From positions 1 through 51,301 of the forward strand of contig JAFSWG010000008.1 of NCBI GenBank assembly GCA_017444645.1: 51,301 bases of DNA, read 5' to 3'. Below, piece by piece: positions 26,931 to 37,651 of this stretch. The notes under the pieces were generated by a model. That model saw only the letters and a list, made by a program, of their open reading frames with translations. It was not told the origin of the DNA and made no database searches. Position 1 is the first letter of the stretch. Every line of letters starts with the position of its first letter. The stretch is from Acholeplasmatales bacterium (lineage in GTDB: Bacteria > Bacillota_I > Bacilli_A > Acholeplasmatales > Anaeroplasmataceae). A program made the position numbers and the translations under genes.

Positions 26931-27818
26931 TTAATTATTTCCTTCAATTAGCTTTAATAATTCTTCTTTAGTTGGATTTGCCTTAGTGATGATTGGAATA
27001 ATCTTTTGTATTTCTTCTATAGATTTATCCCACCATTTTAAATCTTCTAATATTTTAATTATATCTTCGCTAAATCTCATTTTCTTAATTACACATGGAT
27101 TACCACAACATATTGAATATGATGGTAAATCTTTAGTTACTATAGAATTAGCACCTATTATTACTCCATTACCAATATGAACTCCTGGTAAGATAGTTAC
27201 ATTTTGCCCAATCCAACAATCATTACCAACTACTGTATCACCTTTAAATGGTAAATCTTCCATTTTAGGTGCTTCTTGTTTCCAGCCATCCATCACATAA
27301 AAAGGAAAAGTGGTTGCCGCATTCATTTGATGGTTAGCACCATTCATAATAATTTCTACATTATTACCAATTTGGCAGAACTTACCAATGATTAATTTAT
27401 CTCCTAAGAAATCATAATGATGTGTTACTCTAGATTCAAAATCTTTACCACTATAATATGAATAATCACCAACTATTATATTTTTCCTAGTGATAGTTGG
27501 TTTTATATTTTTCATATTATAAGCACCGGCTTTAGGATATGTAAAATCAGGGTCAGGTGTTTTTATATTTCTAATCGCTTTTTCATCTATGATAGTACCA
27601 TTGTTTTCCATAACTAAGGAATCAAATAAATCATTTACTTCAACATCAAATTTTCTGATTAATAATTCAAGCTTATCATGACTCATGTCATTAACGCCTT
27701 TTTCTATTTTGTTAATAGTTGATCTAGATGTATAGCCTAATTCTCTAGCAAATTCATTTTGATTTAATCCTGCTTTTTTTCTTATTTCTTTTACTTTTTC
27801 GCCAAATTTATTATCCAT
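26931..27818 (-). CDS. XRE helix-turn-helix fused to Vat-type acetyltransferase
   Basis: Residues 5-65 are a Cro/C1-type HTH (AGLNQNEFARELGYTSRSTINKIEKG). After a linker, residues ~105-260 are a left-handed beta-helix acetyltransferase. The second part follows streptogramin acetyltransferases (Vat) closely: VGDYSYY, IGKFCQIG, IMNGANH, GDTVVGNDCWIG and GNP near the end. His163 in GANH is the catalytic His of that family. The fusion of a DNA-binding domain to a Vat-like enzyme in one reading frame is uncommon. Whether it acetylates streptogramins or another acceptor is unknown. The ribosome binding site is AAGGATG. A palindrome over its own -10 box suggests self-repression. Confidence 0.88.
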   Translation of the reverse strand: MDNKFGEKVKEIRKKAGLNQNEFARELGYTSRSTINKIEKGVNDMSHDKLELLIRKFDVEVNDLFDSLVMENNGTIIDEKAIRNIKTPDPDFTYPKAGAYNMKNIKPTITRKNIIVGDYSYYSGKDFESRVTHHYDFLGDKLIIGKFCQIGNNVEIIMNGANHQMNAATTFPFYVMDGWKQEAPKMEDLPFKGDTVVGNDCWIGQNVTILPGVHIGNGVIIGANSIVTKDLPSYSICCGNPCVIKKMRFSEDIIKILEDLKWWDKSIEEIQKIIPIITKANPTKEELLKLIEGNN

Positions 27819-28242: not shown

Positions 28243-28431
28243 TCATTCTTTAATTAAATACTTATTAGGATCATGTCTTAATGGCTTATGACATTTTGGA
28301 CAATATACAAATCCATGTGGATACCATATTCTAAATCCCAAATCATCTTGTTCATATGTAAATTGAGTCATACAATATTCACATGTAATTCTAAACTTAC
28401 TTTTTGCTTCTTTTTCAATTGTTATTGCCAT
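28243..28431 (-). CDS. Small zinc-ribbon protein, 62 aa
   Basis: The protein has two knuckles, CEYC (near residue 17) and CPKC (near residue 44), that should bind one zinc ion. The rest is a short beta-rich fold typical of zinc ribbons. A GAGAGGA ribosome binding site precedes the ATG. It begins 10 bp after the LRAT-like gene and is the last gene of the fatty-acid operon. The function is unknown; it may be a nucleic-acid- or protein-binding accessory. Confidence 0.72.
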   Translation of the reverse strand: MAITIEKEAKSKFRITCEYCMTQFTYEQDDLGFRIWYPHGFVYCPKCHKPLRHDPNKYLIKE

Positions 28432-28441
28432 AAAAATCCTC

Positions 28442-28807
28442 TCAATTTATATGTTTATTAAATACACATTCATTTACGAAATGAAGACAATTATTAGAAA
28501 TAAGATTATATCCTTTTTCTCCTAATCTTTCTTTAGCTTTTTTTATCACTAAATCAGCCTTATTTTTCTTTATCTTTTCTATAAATGAATATTCTCTTAC
28601 TTCTAAGAATTTACCATTTAAAAAATCCTTGATTGTAGTTGTTTCAACACATACATCACTTGAATCAGTTTTAAACGCATCTTTAGCACTACCAAATTGT
28701 ATTACAGAATTATCATTTTCATATATACCATAATGATAAATATCATCTTTTATTTTTACTCTGATGATATCTCCATATTTTGGTTCTCTTAAACTAAAAT
28801 TTGCCAT
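28442..28807 (-). CDS. LRAT-like (NlpC/P60 superfamily) protein, probable acyltransferase or hydrolase
   Basis: The 121-residue protein fits the LRAT/HRASLS domain. It begins with a 'GDIIRVK' strand, followed by HYGIY with His25, VIQFG, and NNCLHFVNEC with Cys107 as nucleophile. In characterised members the His-Cys pair moves acyl groups between lipids or cleaves them. The second His of the family (usually VIH) is Gln37 here. There is no signal peptide or membrane helix. The start overlaps the end of the tandem acyltransferase gene by 14 bp, so translation is coupled. Its place in a cluster of fatty-acid activation genes supports a lipid substrate. Confidence 0.78.
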   Translation of the reverse strand: MANFSLREPKYGDIIRVKIKDDIYHYGIYENDNSVIQFGSAKDAFKTDSSDVCVETTTIKDFLNGKFLEVREYSFIEKIKKNKADLVIKKAKERLGEKGYNLISNNCLHFVNECVFNKHIN

Positions 28808-30062
28808 CTAGAAAATCATCCCTTAATTTTAATATTTTATCTTTTAATTCATTAGTGATAATTCTTAAATTTTCTTCATTTGGTCTTTTTCCATTTAAAT
28901 TAATATCATATCTTTCACCACAAATAAGCTTAAATCTCTCACTTGTCTTTTTTCTTTTATTAATATATATAGGATAAATTGGAACTCCAGCCTTATATGC
29001 AAGTAGTGCTGCCCCTGTCTTATATTCTTCCTTTTCACCCACATCTATATGACCAGGACCATAAATAACTACAATATTACCAGCTTTAAGTAAATCTAAT
29101 ATCTTTTGATATGCTTCGATATCATTTATATTTCTATCTACTCTAACACAGCCAAGTGATGTTAATAGCTTAGATCTAACTGGGTGATTATCAAATAATA
29201 TTTCAGCAGCAACTATATATATTCTTCTTCTCCAATATGCGTTTATACATAAAAGAGGATCTGCAAAGCTTGTATGGTTTGCAAATACTACAGCTCCACC
29301 TTTTATTTTTAAGTTTGTCTTTTTCTTACCTTTATTATAAACCTTAGTTCTATACCAACAATTCATTATAAAGGCAATACATCTACCCATATCTTTAAAT
29401 AAGTATTTAAAATGTAATCCTTGGCAATATTTATCTTTATTCTTTTCCTCTTTACATATCTTAGATAATTCATTAATTTTATTTTTAACAATATTATTTA
29501 AATATTCTATTTCTTCTTTAGTTGGATTTGTTGAATTACAATAATCACTTAAATAAATCTTCTTACCAATAACAACTCTAGTTCTTTTTTTAATAGAATA
29601 TGTTCCATCTGTATAAATAGGAATTATTGGTTTACCTGACTTTAATGCGATTAAAATATATGTAGGATGAAATTTTAATAATCCATTATTTTTATTGACC
29701 TTACCTTCAGGATATACAGCTAATAACTTATTTTTATTTAGCATATCAACTGATTTATTAATAAAACTAAAATCATAATTTCTTCTATCTATTTTTATTC
29801 CACCCATTACAGTAGTTAAGGTAGATACAATCCAGCCATGAGAATAAATAAGTTCACTCATTAAACAATATAATTTTCTAAAAGGAAATAAAAAGATAGC
29901 CATCATAAAATCCATTAAGCTTCTATGATTAGAAACAACTAAAGCTCCACCTCTAATAAATCTTGATGTATCCTTTTTATCTTCATAATATATTCTTTTT
30001 TTGAAAAATATTAGCTGGACTGGCCAAGCCATTATTTTTCCTATTAAATATAAAATAATCAT
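28794..30062 (-). CDS. Tandem PlsC-type acyltransferase (two LPLAT domains in one chain)
   Basis: The 422-residue protein holds two lysophospholipid acyltransferase domains. Domain 1 (~1-200) has NHRSLMD at 45-51 and PEG at 118-120. Domain 2 (~215-420) has NHTSFAD at 262-268, with GPGH in place of the usual PEG. Each His-Asp pair is intact. Such enzymes transfer acyl chains from acyl-ACP or acyl-CoA to glycerolipids or other acceptors; having two could mean two consecutive acylations. A hydrophobic N-terminal segment should place it on the membrane. The start overlaps the upstream stop in ATGA. The substrate is inferred from the acyl-ligase/carrier gene next to it. Confidence 0.87.
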   Translation of the reverse strand: MIILYLIGKIMAWPVQLIFFKKRIYYEDKKDTSRFIRGGALVVSNHRSLMDFMMAIFLFPFRKLYCLMSELIYSHGWIVSTLTTVMGGIKIDRRNYDFSFINKSVDMLNKNKLLAVYPEGKVNKNNGLLKFHPTYILIALKSGKPIIPIYTDGTYSIKKRTRVVIGKKIYLSDYCNSTNPTKEEIEYLNNIVKNKINELSKICKEEKNKDKYCQGLHFKYLFKDMGRCIAFIMNCWYRTKVYNKGKKKTNLKIKGGAVVFANHTSFADPLLCINAYWRRRIYIVAAEILFDNHPVRSKLLTSLGCVRVDRNINDIEAYQKILDLLKAGNIVVIYGPGHIDVGEKEEYKTGAALLAYKAGVPIYPIYINKRKKTSERFKLICGERYDINLNGKRPNEENLRIITNELKDKILKLRDDFLDGKF

Positions 30063-31966
30063 AATGATAACACCCTTTCTACTTCCTTAGCTAGCTTAAT
30101 TGAAGTATGTAGGCTATCATTTTCAAATTGAAGTTTAATATTAAATTTATCGTTAATTCTCGATACTAAATCAAAATAATCTAATGAAGAACCATTTAAA
30201 TCAAAGAAGAAATCAGAATTATCTAAAACATCTTTAATATCGATATTTAAGCATTCTGCAATACATTCTTTAACTCCGTTTAATATTTTAGGATCAACAT
30301 CGTTATTATTTGATACATTTATATCATTATATTCGATTAATTTAACGCTATTATCTTTTATTTTTGATTTTAAATATTGTCTTGATACTTTTATAGCATT
30401 AGGATTTTTAATTGAATTATATGTGAAATATATTTTAGAAACTCTCATTGATGAATCTAAATTATTATTAATTTCATTAGCTTTATTATATAATTCATCA
30501 ATAATTAATTTAGGTGCATAATCATTTATTTCAATAACTAATGATAATTTATTATCAACATCTAATACAGAGATATTATTAGCCTTATCTAAATTAAATA
30601 ATTTTTCTAAATGATCAGGATTAATGTTTTCACCATTAGGTCCGATAAATAAATCATCTTCTCTACCATCAATATAATAATATCCATCTATTTCGTGAAC
30701 TAAATCAGATGTATCAAACCATTCTTCTTTACCAAATTCATGGATTACACCATCAATTTTCATTTTATGAGAAATAGATGTTCCTCTAACAAACAATTTA
30801 TTATTTTCTATTTTATATTCAACCGAACCAAATCTTTTTCCAATTGAATTTTTTAATCTATCATTAATACCACCTAAAGTAACAGATGTAATACCTATTT
30901 CTGACATACCATATCCATTATATAAAGGATATCCTAATGAATTAATTAAATATAATGTTGAATCCTTTATATAGCTACCACCAGATATACAGAATTTAAC
31001 ACTACTACCAAATAATTTATTAGTTATTTCTTTCATTAGCTTTTTACTCTTCTCTAAGCCATATGAAGGAAACATCTTTTGTAATTTAATAGTAAATCTT
31101 TGACCCTTTTTAAATTTATTTTGAGTCTTTTCATCCTTATTCTTTAATTCTGATAAAATAGTTCTTTCTATTGTATTCCAAAATAAAGGTACAGCAAATA
31201 TATGAGTAACCTCATGTTTTTTAATAGTATTTAAAATAGTATCACTTGAATAATCATTTAAAAATACTTGACATCTACCAAAATAAGAAAACCACATGAA
31301 TGTAGCCATAAATCCAAATATATGATATAAAGGCAAGAATACTAATTGCTTTAAATATCCATGATAATGTTTCTTAATTTGTTTATTTTGTTTTAATATT
31401 CCTTCACAATTTAATATTTGGGCAGATATTTCTTCTCCTGTATAAAAAATAATTTTTTCTTTCATTGTAGTCGCACTTGTAGATAGTGCGATTTCATTTT
31501 CAAAATTAAATTTATAATTAGGCTCACATATTAAATCTAAAGTATTTAAATCAATAAATTTAGTGTCATATCCTAAATCAGATACACCAATTGAATATTT
31601 GATATCTAAGCTTTTAAGTAATGAATTAATTAAATGCTTAGGATGTCTTAAATTAATTAAATATGGCTTATTTCCACTTTTTAATATTGAAAAGAATATA
31701 TATACCCATTCAATGGTAGATTCTTGCATAATACCAATATATTGATTTTTTAAATCAGGGTATTTCTTATTAATACTATAAGCTAAATTAGATATTTTCT
31801 CATCTACTTCTTTAAATGTATATTTAGTTATTTTATAACCATCATTTGTTTCAGCAAATATATATTCTGGATTTAAAAACATTCCAGAATAAATTGCTTC
31901 AAATGTTTGGTTGCTATTAGTTAAATGATTAACCCTAGTATTAACGATTTTCTTTATATTTAACAT
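30059..31966 (-). CDS. Acyl-AMP ligase fused to a C-terminal acyl carrier domain
   Basis: Residues 1-~530 form an ANL-superfamily adenylating enzyme: STSATTMKEK as a degenerate P-loop motif, YNGYGMSE, and WFDTSD with DGREDD. Residues ~555-635 are an acyl carrier domain with DLNGSSLDYFDL; Ser594 is the expected phosphopantetheine site. It should activate a carboxylic acid, probably a fatty acid, as acyl-AMP and load it on its own carrier. The usual TSGTTGxPK loop is changed to TSATTMKEK, so ATP binding may differ. The gene lies between a phosphopantetheinyl transferase that would activate the carrier and a tandem acyltransferase that could use the acyl-carrier. It begins one base after the transferase stop. 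Confidence 0.87.
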   Translation of the reverse strand: MLNIKKIVNTRVNHLTNSNQTFEAIYSGMFLNPEYIFAETNDGYKITKYTFKEVDEKISNLAYSINKKYPDLKNQYIGIMQESTIEWVYIFFSILKSGNKPYLINLRHPKHLINSLLKSLDIKYSIGVSDLGYDTKFIDLNTLDLICEPNYKFNFENEIALSTSATTMKEKIIFYTGEEISAQILNCEGILKQNKQIKKHYHGYLKQLVFLPLYHIFGFMATFMWFSYFGRCQVFLNDYSSDTILNTIKKHEVTHIFAVPLFWNTIERTILSELKNKDEKTQNKFKKGQRFTIKLQKMFPSYGLEKSKKLMKEITNKLFGSSVKFCISGGSYIKDSTLYLINSLGYPLYNGYGMSEIGITSVTLGGINDRLKNSIGKRFGSVEYKIENNKLFVRGTSISHKMKIDGVIHEFGKEEWFDTSDLVHEIDGYYYIDGREDDLFIGPNGENINPDHLEKLFNLDKANNISVLDVDNKLSLVIEINDYAPKLIIDELYNKANEINNNLDSSMRVSKIYFTYNSIKNPNAIKVSRQYLKSKIKDNSVKLIEYNDINVSNNNDVDPKILNGVKECIAECLNIDIKDVLDNSDFFFDLNGSSLDYFDLVSRINDKFNIKLQFENDSLHTSIKLAKEVERVLSL

Positions 31967-31967
31967 A

Positions 31968-32540
31968 TTAACTCCTTAATATACCATTTAAATATACTTC
32001 TAATTTAAATTCTTCTTTAGCACATACAGTAAAAATTGTATTATCAATCATAATTGATTTATAAATGATATTTAAATGATTAAATTTATAATCTAAGCCA
32101 TTACCTTCCATTTTGGCAGCAGATTCAAATTCTGTCCACATTTTAGTTAGATAATAGCCTTTATTATCTGAATTATTATAATTATCATATAATTCATTTT
32201 TTAATATTCTTTTAGCAATTCGATCTCTTCTTTGTTCATCTATAATATTTTCTAAATCAAATCCATTATTTAATTTAGAAATAGTAAATCCAAAATAATC
32301 ATTAGATGTAGAAAATGACATATAAAAATCATCTACAATTGGCTTATTGTTAACAAATCTAATAGTATTGATATCACCACCAAAAGAATCTAATACTTTT
32401 GATGCAAAATGATAATTAGATTCACTAATTCTTCTTTTAATATCATTATTATAATTATTAGTATGATTTTTAATAATATCATTTAATATTGGATTTTCTA
32501 CTATATTTTTAGAATCATAAAGATAAAGATAAATTTTCAT
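31968..32540 (-). CDS. Sfp-type 4'-phosphopantetheinyl transferase (divergent)
   Basis: The 190-residue protein is a short, divergent member of the Sfp/Gsp family. The metal-binding residues are Asp95 and Glu97 (GFDLENI) and Glu139 in WTEFESAAK (Trp135, Lys143). Their spacing of 2 and 42 residues equals that of Asp107, Glu109 and Glu151 in B. subtilis Sfp. The MSFSTSND segment stands for the usual ISHS. It should transfer phosphopantetheine from CoA to a carrier protein. The obvious target is the carrier domain of the ligase gene immediately downstream. The ATG overlaps the FakA stop (TAATG). Confidence 0.78.
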   Translation of the reverse strand: MKIYLYLYDSKNIVENPILNDIIKNHTNNYNNDIKRRISESNYHFASKVLDSFGGDINTIRFVNNKPIVDDFYMSFSTSNDYFGFTISKLNNGFDLENIIDEQRRDRIAKRILKNELYDNYNNSDNKGYYLTKMWTEFESAAKMEGNGLDYKFNHLNIIYKSIMIDNTIFTVCAKEEFKLEVYLNGILRS

Positions 32541-34174
32541 TAGTTTATACCTATTATAAAATCATAAATATCTTGTTTACCATCGATTATACCTGTTTCA
32601 ATATAATCATAGTCTTCGTTAATTTTATTATTTAATTCTTCTATTTCTTCTTCACTAATATTTTTACCAGTGAATATAGAAATAATTGCTTTTTCATCTA
32701 TTTCAGGAACTAATTTTAATGCTTCAAGAACTAAATCATCTCTATTTAATGATGTTTTAATTATTTTTCCATCTAAAATAGCCATATAGTCTCCACCATT
32801 TATTTCAATTCCGTCAACAAATGATTTTCTAATCGCTCTAGTTATTAATAATGTATTAACACCATCAATACCTTCTTTTATGTTTTCTAGATGCTCGTCA
32901 ATTTTAATATCAGTATCATCAAGTGCTGTCATTTGAAGACCAAAATAGCATTCCGCTACTGATTTAGTTTCAATTATATGAATATTATCATTTCCTAATA
33001 TTTCCTTAGCTTGCTTAGCAGCTAATATTATATTTTTATTATTTGGAAAAATAATATAATCATCAGCTGGATTAGCTTTAATTGCCATAATAAATTCTTG
33101 AGATGATGTATTAAATTTATCGCCACCATTTATTACAACATCACAGCCAAAGCTTTTAAATTCATTAATAACTCCAGATCCGTTAGCAACAGCAATTGTT
33201 ACTATATTCTTTTTCTTCTCTTCGTTTTTCATTTCATTATTTTGAATAGACATATTATCTATTTTAAGGGAAATAAATTCTCCATATTTTTGAGCTTCAT
33301 TTAAAATATCCCCAGGAGTAAATGTATGTACATGTACCTTTACTCTAGTATCATCCTTGAAGCATACTACAGAATCTCCTTTTGATTCCAAATAATGAAT
33401 GAATTGATTTATATCAAAATTATTTACATCTACCTTTTTTGTTTGTAGTTGTAAAATAAATTCCGTACAATATCCATAAATAAGATCACTATTTTCATCA
33501 AAATCAAATCTATTTTTTGATGTAGCAGCTGACGCTTTAACAACAACTACATCATTTCTTTTAACAATTTCATTATCTAAATATTTAAGCATTCCTTTAT
33601 AAATTAATACAAGGCCAGCTCCACCAGAATCTATTACACCTGCATCCTTTAATACAGGTAATAAATTTGGTGTATTAGCTAATGATAATTCCATTTGCTT
33701 AATTAAGGCAATTAATAATTCTCTTAATGAAGTTGAATAATTAATATATGATTTAATCAAATGAATACCTTCTCTTGCGACAGTAAGAATAGTTCCTTCA
33801 GCCGGGTGAATAACAGCGTTATATGCTGTTTTATAGCCTTGTTCTAGGGCTTCTGCAAAGCCAAAGGCATCTACACATTCTTTATCTTTAAAATATAAAT
33901 ATTGGCCTTTAAATAATTGAGATAAAATAACACCAGAATTACCTCTAGCTCCAAGTAGCATACCTCTTGATAAACCTTTAGCTGCAGCCGATAAACTTTC
34001 ATCTTCAGGCATATTATTAATTCCACCTTCTAGTGTTAACCTCATATTAGTACCAGTATCTCCATCAGGAACTGGAAATACATTTAAGGCATTTATTCTA
34101 TTTTCATCATTAGCAAGTAATGCTAAACCATTTTCTAGCATTCTTTTATATAAAAACCCATTTAACTCTTTCAT
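32540..34174 (-). CDS. fakA: Fatty acid kinase ATP-binding subunit (DAK2 domain)
   Basis: The 544-residue protein has an N-terminal DAK2/DhaL kinase domain with NVFPVPDGDTGTNM (Asp37 and Asp39 bind Mg-ATP), then the linker and C-terminal EDD-like region of FakA/YloV. FakA, with a DegV-type FakB, phosphorylates fatty acids so that exogenous chains can enter phospholipid synthesis. An AGGAG ribosome binding site precedes the ATG. It is the first gene of an operon with PPTase, ligase-carrier, tandem acyltransferase, LRAT-like and zinc-ribbon genes. A DegV/FakB gene is divergent from it. In most Bacillota fakA is next to recG or an Asp23-like gene, so this company is unusual. Confidence 0.9.
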   Translation of the reverse strand: MKELNGFLYKRMLENGLALLANDENRINALNVFPVPDGDTGTNMRLTLEGGINNMPEDESLSAAAKGLSRGMLLGARGNSGVILSQLFKGQYLYFKDKECVDAFGFAEALEQGYKTAYNAVIHPAEGTILTVAREGIHLIKSYINYSTSLRELLIALIKQMELSLANTPNLLPVLKDAGVIDSGGAGLVLIYKGMLKYLDNEIVKRNDVVVVKASAATSKNRFDFDENSDLIYGYCTEFILQLQTKKVDVNNFDINQFIHYLESKGDSVVCFKDDTRVKVHVHTFTPGDILNEAQKYGEFISLKIDNMSIQNNEMKNEEKKKNIVTIAVANGSGVINEFKSFGCDVVINGGDKFNTSSQEFIMAIKANPADDYIIFPNNKNIILAAKQAKEILGNDNIHIIETKSVAECYFGLQMTALDDTDIKIDEHLENIKEGIDGVNTLLITRAIRKSFVDGIEINGGDYMAILDGKIIKTSLNRDDLVLEALKLVPEIDEKAIISIFTGKNISEEEIEELNNKINEDYDYIETGIIDGKQDIYDFIIGIN

Positions 34175-34201
34175 AAAAAACTCCTAAAAAACAACACATA
34201 G

Positions 34202-34230
34202 ATTATAGCAAATTATACCTTTATTGTAAA
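34202..34230 (-). promoter_or_regulatory. Promoter of the fakA operon
   Basis: On the minus strand TTTACA, 17 bp, TATAAT, about 28 bp before the fakA ATG. Confidence 0.8.
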
Positions 34231-34250
34231 TAAAACCAGTTATAATATGT

Positions 34251-34279
34251 TTTACTTTTAATCGTTTTCGTGTTAGAAT
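34251..34279 (+). promoter_or_regulatory. Promoter of the DegV/FakB gene
   Basis: TTTACT, 17 bp, TAGAAT, divergent from the fakA promoter and about 36 bp before the ATG. Confidence 0.55.
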
Positions 34280-34314
34280 TGTTATAGTGTTTTATCACGA
34301 TTTGGAGGGTATTT

Positions 34315-35244
34315 ATGAGTAAATTTGTTATTGTTTGTGATGTCACTTGTGATCTTAATAAGGAATTAAGAGATAGATTTGATATCGAATATGTTAAAGG
34401 ACATATGACTTGTCCAGATGGAAAAGAAAAGGTTACAGTTTTAAACTGGAATGAAATGTCACATGATGAATTCTATAATGATTTAAAAAAGAATCCTAAT
34501 GGATATTCTACTTCACCTGCTTCACCAGAAGAATTTAAGGAAGTATTTGAAAAATATTTAATTGAAGGATATGATATTTTATCTATTTCAATTTCAACAG
34601 CTTTATCTGGTACATATAATTTCTCACTTCAAGCTAAAGAAATGTTAATGCCATCATATCCAGAAAGAAAAATCATTTGTATCGATTCTTTAAGATATTC
34701 TACTGGTTTTGGTTTACTTGCTGTAAGAGCATCAATGCTAAGAAGCGAAGGAAAGACAATAGATGAAGTTGCTTTATGGGTAGAAAAAAATAAGAGCTGT
34801 TGTCATCAAGCTGGTTTCTTAGATGATTTATCATTTGTTGCTGCAAAAGGTAGATTATCTAAATCAAAAGCTTTCATGGGTAAATTAATTGGTATTAAGC
34901 CTATGGGTGAATTTGACTATAATGGTTTAACAACAATCATTGGTAAAGCAAAAGGTGATAAAGCTTCAATTGATGCGATAATGAAGTATATGGAAGCTAC
35001 AATTGAAAATCCTAGTGAACAAATTATTTTCATTGCTTCTACTAATAGAATGAAACAAGCATTAATACTAAAAGATAGAATTGAAACAACATTTAAACCA
35101 AAGGAAGTTATTATTACAGATGTATATCCTGCAGATGGTATTAACATTGGACCTGGTTTAATGAGTGCTTACTATTTCGGTAAAACAATTAGTGAAGGAT
35201 TAGTTGAAGAAAAGAAAATAATGGATCAAATTTTAGCAAAATAA
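34315..35244 (+). CDS. DegV family fatty-acid-binding protein (FakB)
   Basis: The 309-residue cytoplasmic protein belongs to the DegV/FakB family, which holds a fatty acid for phosphorylation by FakA. Recognisable family segments are VCDVTCDL, YSTSPASPEEF, SISTALSGTYNFS (polar residues that bind the carboxylate), CIDSLRYSTGFG and LSFVAAKGRLSK. A TTTGGAGGG ribosome binding site precedes the ATG. Its divergence from fakA with a 140 bp promoter region suggests that both halves of the kinase system are regulated together. The length is slightly greater than the usual ~280 residues. Confidence 0.9.
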   Translation: MSKFVIVCDVTCDLNKELRDRFDIEYVKGHMTCPDGKEKVTVLNWNEMSHDEFYNDLKKNPNGYSTSPASPEEFKEVFEKYLIEGYDILSISISTALSGTYNFSLQAKEMLMPSYPERKIICIDSLRYSTGFGLLAVRASMLRSEGKTIDEVALWVEKNKSCCHQAGFLDDLSFVAAKGRLSKSKAFMGKLIGIKPMGEFDYNGLTTIIGKAKGDKASIDAIMKYMEATIENPSEQIIFIASTNRMKQALILKDRIETTFKPKEVIITDVYPADGINIGPGLMSAYYFGKTISEGLVEEKKIMDQILAK

Positions 35245-36682: not shown

Positions 36683-37651
36683 TTATTTTACATCAAATCC
36701 AAGAACATGATTTAGCATTTTAAATGCTGCTTCATTTATAGCATCACTATCTATGCTTCCATATCCTTTAAATGACATATCGCATTCATCTATAGAACAT
36801 ATTGCAGCATAACCACCATTTTCTTCAAAAACATCAAATTCTGGTAATGAAAAATGACCATCCATAGCTAATTTTTCAAGCTGTTGCATCGCGGTTTCAA
36901 GTTCTGGGGTTATATCAATATTCTTTAATGTTTTTACATAATTATTCTCAACTAAATATGTATAAGCCTTCTTAGCAGCCTTCATTCTAGCTATTGATTT
37001 ATTTTCTGCTTCTTCACTAAAAGTAAAATCAGTACCATTTAAGAATAAATGTAGGACACATTTAAATGAAACTACAGTATCAGAATCACCTGGCATATAA
37101 TCATAAACAGGGATTGGAGAATTATTCTCAGCAGTCCAATTATGTACTAATACAACGAAATTACCATTCAAATCACCAAAACCATTATCTAAATAATAAT
37201 CAATATCTAATATGAATGATAAAACATCATTAATAACATTCATATTCCAATTACTATCTAAAGCAACGGCTCCTACTATCGCTTCAAATAATTTACGATC
37301 TGTATTAAAAACATCTGTTTGATCATTGAATTCTAAATATTTACTTAAGCCTAACAATTCAATATTTCTAGCAAATATATCTTTAGAATATAGATTATTT
37401 AATAAATCATTAAATTCTTCGTTAGAATTCTTAGTTCTAAATAATCCTTTTTCACTATAATATCCAAAATATCCAGTTAATATTTGAGTAATTGAATAAT
37501 TAATAGTTCTTTTACCTATATTTCTTAAAGCTTCACTAGAAAATGGTATATTATCATTTTCAGTAATCATAAATGCTTGTTGAATTAGCATTTTATTCTT
37601 AAACTCATATTGAATTGATGCTTCTACATCGTTAAAATCTATGTTTAACAC
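36683..37651 (-). CDS. Degenerate RNase III-like protein with two dsRBD-like domains
   Basis: The 322-residue protein has an RNase III-like helical domain (~1-150) followed by two double-stranded-RNA-binding-like domains (~165-240 and ~255-320). The RNase III signature NERLEFLGD is replaced by SEALRNIGK: the catalytic Glu and Asp are Arg and Lys. In the second acidic motif (FEAIVGAVALD) the Glu is kept but the first Asp position is Lys. It is therefore probably catalytically dead and may bind structured RNA. It starts with GTG at 37649-37651 behind AAAGGAGAT; no ATG is available. An alternative reading is a MrnC/Mini-III-like relic. It stands alone with its own terminator. Confidence 0.72.
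   Translation of the reverse strand: MLNIDFNDVEASIQYEFKNKMLIQQAFMITENDNIPFSSEALRNIGKRTINYSITQILTGYFGYYSEKGLFRTKNSNEEFNDLLNNLYSKDIFARNIELLGLSKYLEFNDQTDVFNTDRKLFEAIVGAVALDSNWNMNVINDVLSFILDIDYYLDNGFGDLNGNFVVLVHNWTAENNSPIPVYDYMPGDSDTVVSFKCVLHLFLNGTDFTFSEEAENKSIARMKAAKKAYTYLVENNYVKTLKNIDITPELETAMQQLEKLAMDGHFSLPEFDVFEENGGYAAICSIDECDMSFKGYGSIDSDAINEAAFKMLNHVLGFDVK

Follow-up and report, generated by a model that had tools for sequence, protein, structure and literature searches.

A conserved operon of an Acholeplasmatales bacterium that may salvage fatty acids and acylate glycerophospholipids, with exchangeable activation genes

The main finding of this work was the identification of a conserved acylation operon on the minus strand of a contig from an Acholeplasmatales bacterium (GCA_017444645.1, JAFSWG010000008.1), of which the whole stretch of 51,301 nucleotides is called the window here. 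Six tightly coupled genes, running from position 34174 down to 28243, encode in 5' to 3' order a FakA-type fatty acid kinase (544 residues), an Sfp-fold 4'-phosphopantetheinyl transferase (PPTase, 190 residues), an adenylate-forming ligase with a C-terminal acyl carrier domain (LIG1-ACP, 635 residues), a double PlsC acyltransferase (422 residues), an LRAT-like protein (121 residues) and a zinc-ribbon protein (62 residues). We consider it probable (about 0.6) that this operon serves to take exogenous fatty acids into use and to acylate glycerophospholipids with them, as a module similar to an Aas enzyme whose parts are not fused, in which the fatty acid kinase (Fak) provides an alternative acyl supply.

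This reading draws on a comparison with related genomes, which range up to 100% completeness, while G000, the genome of the window, is 74% complete. The sequence-only reading had suggested looking for these genes together in relatives. Of the 27 genomes of the genus, 11 have the core, spread over four or more separate branches, and it is also kept in a second family, f2, where the ligase-carrier occurs in two of three genomes. A profile search returned the ligase-carrier in 36 of the 395 genomes of the class, and the carriers of the genus fall on four separate branches of the PlsX1 tree. Where contigs allow, the order FakB, FakA-PPTase-ligase/ACP-PlsC2-LRAT is kept in G000, G004, G016, G019, G020 and G025; G003 has the order without LRAT in place, the clusters of G006 and G023 are cut by contig ends, and those of G001 and G012 are without the PPTase, with an MFS_2 transporter (major facilitator superfamily, MFS) directly upstream in G001. 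Since the order, with either PPTase or PlsX after FakA, recurs elsewhere at ligase identities of 54-82%, the arrangement goes beyond chance.

The related versions also revealed which parts are exchanged. The f9 and f19 families have a cluster that consists of LIG1-ACP, often an MFS_2 transporter, PlsC-a, PlsC-b, a second ligase (LIG2), a free acyl carrier protein (ACP) and LRAT, where PlsC-a and PlsC-b are separate genes that together correspond, by profile match, to the fused PlsC of the window. LIG2 is a fatty-acyl ligase of the PRK06187 type (191-208 bits), a PPTase lies within the cluster of this type in G188 and G330, and no FakA was found in the f9/f19 clusters. In family f2 the slot of the PPTase is occupied by PlsX (FakA-PlsX-LIG1). 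The core is thus formed by LIG1-ACP, PlsC-a, PlsC-b and LRAT, and the activation slot is filled by LIG2 and ACP, by FakA (with or without FakB), or by FakA and PlsX. Because f9 and f19 fill this slot with a fatty-acyl ligase and an ACP, and f2 adds PlsX to FakA, the FakA slot is tied to fatty-acid activation; and this exchange of activation parts around the core is the best evidence that the cluster FakA feeds acyl chains to the core enzymes, as it probably does. The earlier description of a cluster built around FakA has consequently to be turned around, as FakA is an exchangeable part of an invariant core of ligase-ACP, two PlsC domains and LRAT.

Gene positions, Pfam domains and junction distances in the window agreed with the order, coupling and coordinates proposed from the sequence. 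The fakA gene (32540-34174) overlaps the PPTase gene (31968-32540) by 1 bp at 32540; the latter is separated by 1 bp from the ligase-carrier gene (30059-31966), which overlaps the double plsC gene (28794-30062) by 4 bp; this overlaps the LRAT gene (28442-28807) by 14 bp, and a gap of 10 bp precedes the zinc-ribbon gene (28243-28431). The divergent DegV/FakB gene was likewise verified at 34315-35244 on the plus strand, across a gap of 140 bp; wherever the contig of a cluster genome extends to this side and shows no rearrangement, FakB adjoins FakA and diverges from it. The best promoter candidate in this region, a putative extended -10 promoter (TTTACA-17-TATAAT with TG, 11 of 12 consensus matches), lies about 28 bp upstream of fakA at 34230-34202 and is found at the matching position in relatives, and the sole strong minus-strand terminator, a predicted 13-pair stem with a T tail, follows the zinc ribbon at 28150-28121. 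These signals suggest that the six genes share one promoter and one terminator. In G019 and G020 (L026, L027) a perfect palindrome, GTCCTTTGTTTACAAAGGAC, not evident in the window, covers the -35 region between fakB and fakA, and its position makes it a possible operator or repressor site.

FakA of the cluster, the second FakA of the genome, carries the Dak2, FakA-M and FakA-C domains and passes the TIGR03599 cut-off, while its score against the S. aureus-type equivalog NF038248 was 417 of the 975 bits required. Its middle domain keeps a Cys and an HxH motif (YGYCTEF, KVHVHT) that correspond, by their place in the domain, to C240, H282 and H284 of S. aureus FakA, residues essential for the kinase activity of that enzyme (PMC11617999). 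The three domains and the intact metal-site residues point to a fatty acid kinase. The housekeeping FakA of G000, encoded at the fakA-recG-plsX locus (L060:5597-7228, G000:C34), has Ser at the Cys position and only one His; since it is without the Cys and the second His that the cluster FakA retains, the main kinase activity may lie elsewhere than in this copy. Between plsX and rnc, the L060 locus has no acpP. In FakB the DegV domain is clear (E 3e-53), which is compatible with a fatty-acid-binding subunit, and the score against the FakB1 equivalog reached 88 of 350 bits; the residue before GPG, a His in FakB1, is Asn in the FakB of the window.

The ligase-carrier (AMP-binding, E 1e-27; PP-binding, E 5e-7) keeps the adenylate-forming motifs TSATT, YGMSE, DGRxDD and IKVSR, with the Lys of A10 among them, as well as GSSLDY of the carrier domain; these motifs and the carrier Ser594 are invariant among 11 homologues. 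Its structural model (pLDDT 79, weak at residues 193-238) matches didomains of adenylation and peptidyl carrier domains (A-PCP), MenE (TM-score 0.74), DltA (0.71) and AasS (0.66). The protein is certainly an adenylate-forming enzyme with a carrier domain, whereas the fold does not settle the acid, as MenE, DltA, AasS and adenylation domains of nonribosomal peptide synthetases (NRPS) all match and residues 193-238 are of low confidence; it is the genomic context that favours a fatty acid. A role in D-alanylation, similar to dlt systems, was set aside, as no DltB or DltD partner was present in the neighbourhoods examined by eye and with the profiles run. Family f11 (L106-L116) has a lone ligase-carrier beside an fmt-like and other housekeeping genes in most of the genomes sampled, which are of about 1.1 Mb and without any ketosynthase. 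The PPTase scored 24.9 bits in Pfam against a cut-off of 25; its GxDxE and WxxxExxxK motifs are invariant among 10 homologues, and its AlphaFold2 model (pLDDT 91) has Sfp (4mrt) as the best PDB match, followed by other Sfp-class PPTases. Motifs and pseudodimer fold are those of an Sfp-type enzyme.

The double PlsC has two PF01553 Acyltransferase stretches in a single open reading frame, which score best with 1-acylglycerol-3-phosphate (AGP) acyltransferase and with the MFS-PlsC-ligase fusion PRK08633. The NHx4D motif (motif I) is invariant in both domains, and in the first domain it is accompanied by an intact PEG motif III. In the LRAT protein (PF04970, E 3e-19) His25 and Asn106-Cys107-x-His109-Phe110 are invariant and the PDB matches are PLAAT4, PLAAT3 and LRAT, so that an NlpC/P60-type fold with His and NCxHF places it in this family of thiol acyltransferases and phospholipases, with a reaction that may resemble that of the PLAAT enzymes, which deacylate and transacylate phospholipids (PMC4624172). 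As for the zinc ribbon, the earlier view of it as a member of the cluster is right in that it appears to be co-transcribed with the operon, but it lies outside the conserved core and was found in G000 and G025. Other zinc-ribbon proteins come after LRAT in G012, G158 and G348.

The fatty-acid metabolism of the hosts also agrees with a salvage function. Canonical, single-ketosynthase FabF was found in none of the 33 carriers tested, FabH in none of 13 tested, and all 20 carriers examined from other families are devoid of any ketosynthase. Within the order, and without correction for kinship, 29 of 67 non-carriers but none of the 13 carriers have canonical FabF, and a second PlsX occurs in 11 of 13 carriers and in 2 of 67 others; the four FabF-positive genomes of the genus are all without the cluster. 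A lack of fabF, fabH and acpS had been suggested for such genomes: it holds for canonical FabF and FabH, although the genus has an operon of the ketosynthase-chain-length factor (KS-CLF) type, and for acpS the search had too little sensitivity, as even the known PPTases of the clusters in G000 and G016 escaped it. To call the cluster self-contained, as had been done, is also too strong, because it is accompanied by a second PlsX whose gene lies at another locus. Canonical FakA1, PlsX and PlsC are encoded outside the cluster in G000; PlsY is present in relatives and was not found in G000, a genome 74% complete. With these canonical enzymes, PlsY among them in relatives, existing besides the cluster, the latter is an additional route. 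The second PlsX precedes def in G000 (L049:9726-10697), G003, G004, G016 and G025, and in G019 (L053:7844-11397) it comes after a further FakB-FakA pair, with which it forms an operon.

The KS-CLF-type operon of G000 (L050:8853-18900; G000:C22, about 65850-75900; also L057, L058, L059, L076 and L077) resembles a type II fatty acid synthesis (FASII) operon. It encodes a fused double ketosynthase of about 800 residues, with Cys/His/His in domain 1 and Gln at the Cys position of domain 2, followed by ACP, FabG, FabZ, a flavin reductase, ACP, AccB-AccC-AccD-AccA and FabD; there is no FabH in it, nor FabK in cluster-negative genomes. Across the genus, its product may be an unsaturated or polyene acid, or the operon may stand in for FASII without FabH.

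Taken together, the Cys and HxH residues of FakA, the lack of FabF and FabH in carriers and the slot exchange in f9/f19 and f2 support the proposal that a conserved operon activates fatty acids and acylates lipids. We hypothesize that FakB would bind a fatty acid and FakA phosphorylate it to acyl-phosphate, whose chain PlsX, from the second copy elsewhere or from within the operon in f2, would pass to a carrier, so that FakA, the second PlsX and the PlsC pair may act in one flow. The PPTase would prime the C-terminal carrier domain of the ligase, and the ligase would adenylate a fatty acid and load it on its own carrier. The two PlsC domains would then shift acyl chains from the carriers to two positions of a glycerophospho acceptor, for which glycerol-3-phosphate and lysophosphatidic acid, or a lysophospholipid, are candidates, and the LRAT/PLAAT-like enzyme may remove or exchange acyl chains through a cysteine thioester in a remodelling step. 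The MFS_2 transporters present in several versions of the cluster (f9/f19, G001) raise an import step for lysophospholipids or glycerophosphodiesters, without being proof of it; no solved relative of these proteins was found, and a sequence link to MFSD2A was thus not made.

Several observations weigh against the salvage reading. Among solved structures, MenE and the A-PCP didomains of NRPS come closest to the ligase, ahead of AasS; f9 and f19 keep LIG1-ACP beside a separate fatty-acyl ligase and ACP, so that LIG1 could take a different acid; and most members have GPGH, PSGH or ASGH as an eroded motif III in the second PlsC domain. In f23, and in f11 as far as sampled, LIG1-ACP stands alone and is therefore usable without the cluster acyltransferases, FakA has a degenerate middle domain in f2 and has lost it altogether in G001 and G012, and several members of the genus have neither FabH nor the cluster, which is therefore not required for life without canonical FASII. 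The first three of these points, together with the KS-CLF-type protein that all genus carriers have at least in fragments, would suit a factory for a specialised lipid, in which the ligase-carrier activates an amino, hydroxy or aryl acid or a KS-CLF polyene, and a PlsC domain or LRAT joins it to a Fak-supplied acyl lipid to give an aminolipid or other decorated lipid. We regard this as unlikely: the carriers of f9, f11, f19 and f23 have no ketosynthase and therefore no polyene, the cluster holds no genes for amino-acid or aryl biosynthesis, and its acyltransferase parts are all of phospholipid types. The special lipid suggested by the sequence-only reading is a less economical assumption than an ordinary or scavenged glycerophospholipid.

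Exogenous short or medium acids might instead be turned by FakA and the second PlsX, and by LIG1-ACP, into acyl-ACP starters for a FabH-less elongation by KS-CLF, FabG, FabZ and FabK, for which there is a precedent in E. faecalis, where short acids are elongated after activation by FakAB-PlsX (PMC11586512). FabH is absent from carriers, 8 of the 13 carriers have a FabK-like gene, as against none of the 8 FabH-less non-carriers (matches below the family cut-off, counts not corrected for kinship), and the associations of the cluster with the second PlsX and FabK recur on three of the four genus branches. Such a priming module is nevertheless improbable, since the carriers of f2, f9, f11, f19 and f23 have no ketosynthase, G001 and G012 have the cluster without FabK, and the PlsC pair and LRAT would be left unexplained. 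Even less credible, and hardly to be believed, is that ordinary extra copies of Fak and PlsC became neighbours by history without a joint function; every protein is of a known family and canonical FakA1, PlsX and PlsC have their own genes, but the cluster genes overlap between one predicted promoter and one terminator, two families and at least four branches of the genus share their order, they are patchily present or absent together, and an orthologous core exists in two further families. A horizontally moved cassette is also conceivable, as the ligase of G048 falls among the genus sequences; on the other side, the flanking genes are partly conserved and the identities of PlsX and ligase are similar. 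A further reading can be put forward tentatively, in which the ancestral cluster (LIG1-ACP, MFS_2, two PlsC, fatty-acyl ligase with ACP, LRAT, PPTase) would be a Gram-positive counterpart of LplT-Aas, importing and acylating host or dietary lysophospholipids or glycerophosphodiesters in gut Bacilli unable to make fatty acids, and the window a Fak-adapted branch; this is possible, though we would not count on it.

Among the neighbouring genes, a degenerate RNase III-like protein with a double-stranded RNA-binding-like part (TIGR02191, 24.6 bits) is encoded at 36683-37651 and adjoins the cluster in G019 and G020 as well. Downstream of the cluster, an HTH_3 domain is fused to a hexapeptide-repeat acetyltransferase (26931-27818).

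Many uncultured Bacilli of the gut and rumen are without fatty acid synthesis, and to our knowledge their membrane building is largely unstudied. The operon supplies candidate enzymes for this process, which would bear on the efficacy of fatty acid synthesis inhibitors against such bacteria. Furthermore, two unrelated activations, to acyl-phosphate by Fak and to acyl-adenylate by a ligase with ACP, replace each other within one conserved acylation module. Each part is of a known kind; the combination, of which no description was found in the open-licence literature, and the swapping of activation routes from one family to another appear to be undescribed so far.

Compared with known systems, the ligase is predicted to act as does AasS of Vibrio harveyi, which adenylates an acid, loads a carrier and lets cells use exogenous fatty acids, but its carrier is fused and its sequence and fold are nearer to MenE. 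The FakAB-PlsX-PlsY-PlsC route of S. aureus and E. faecalis shares FakA and FakB, with the FakA metal-site residues intact, the link of acyl-phosphate to PlsX and acylation by PlsC; the cluster FakA, in contrast, is a paralogue outside the recG-plsX locus, co-operonic with a carrier-bearing ligase, a PPTase, a double PlsC and LRAT. PLAAT/HRASLS and LRAT proteins have the same fold family and active site of His and NCxHF, whereas the cluster protein is bacterial, short (121 residues) and embedded in an acylation operon. In Aas, the ligase and acyltransferase domains of the protein perform the ligation and acyl-transfer steps (PMC11416262), and both LplT-Aas of E. coli and PRK08633 resemble the cluster in pairing an acyl-ACP synthetase with a PlsC-type acyltransferase, an MFS-type transporter being linked in several cluster relatives. 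The cluster is nevertheless not an Aas: it scores 99 bits against an equivalog cut-off of 1221 (PRK08633/PRK08043), its ligase is separate from PlsC and bears a fused carrier, PlsC is doubled, LRAT, PPTase and Fak are added, and the transporter of the relatives is MFS_2 and not LplT, with none in the window operon. Finally, the scavenging of glycerophosphocholine (GPC) and lysophosphatidylcholine (lysoPC) by mitis-group streptococci (PMC6805115) is similar in the possible double acylation of a glycerophosphodiester, or acylation of a lysophospholipid, in Gram-positive bacteria; no such cluster was reported there, and that study and PMC11416262 leave the lysophospholipid and GPC transporters and acyltransferases of Gram-positives unidentified. 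Which enzymes acylate lysophospholipid or GPC in these bacteria thus becomes testable, and if the ancestral cluster is indeed a counterpart of LplT-Aas, it would supply candidates for the transport and acylation steps of Gram-positives that scavenge lysoPC and GPC.

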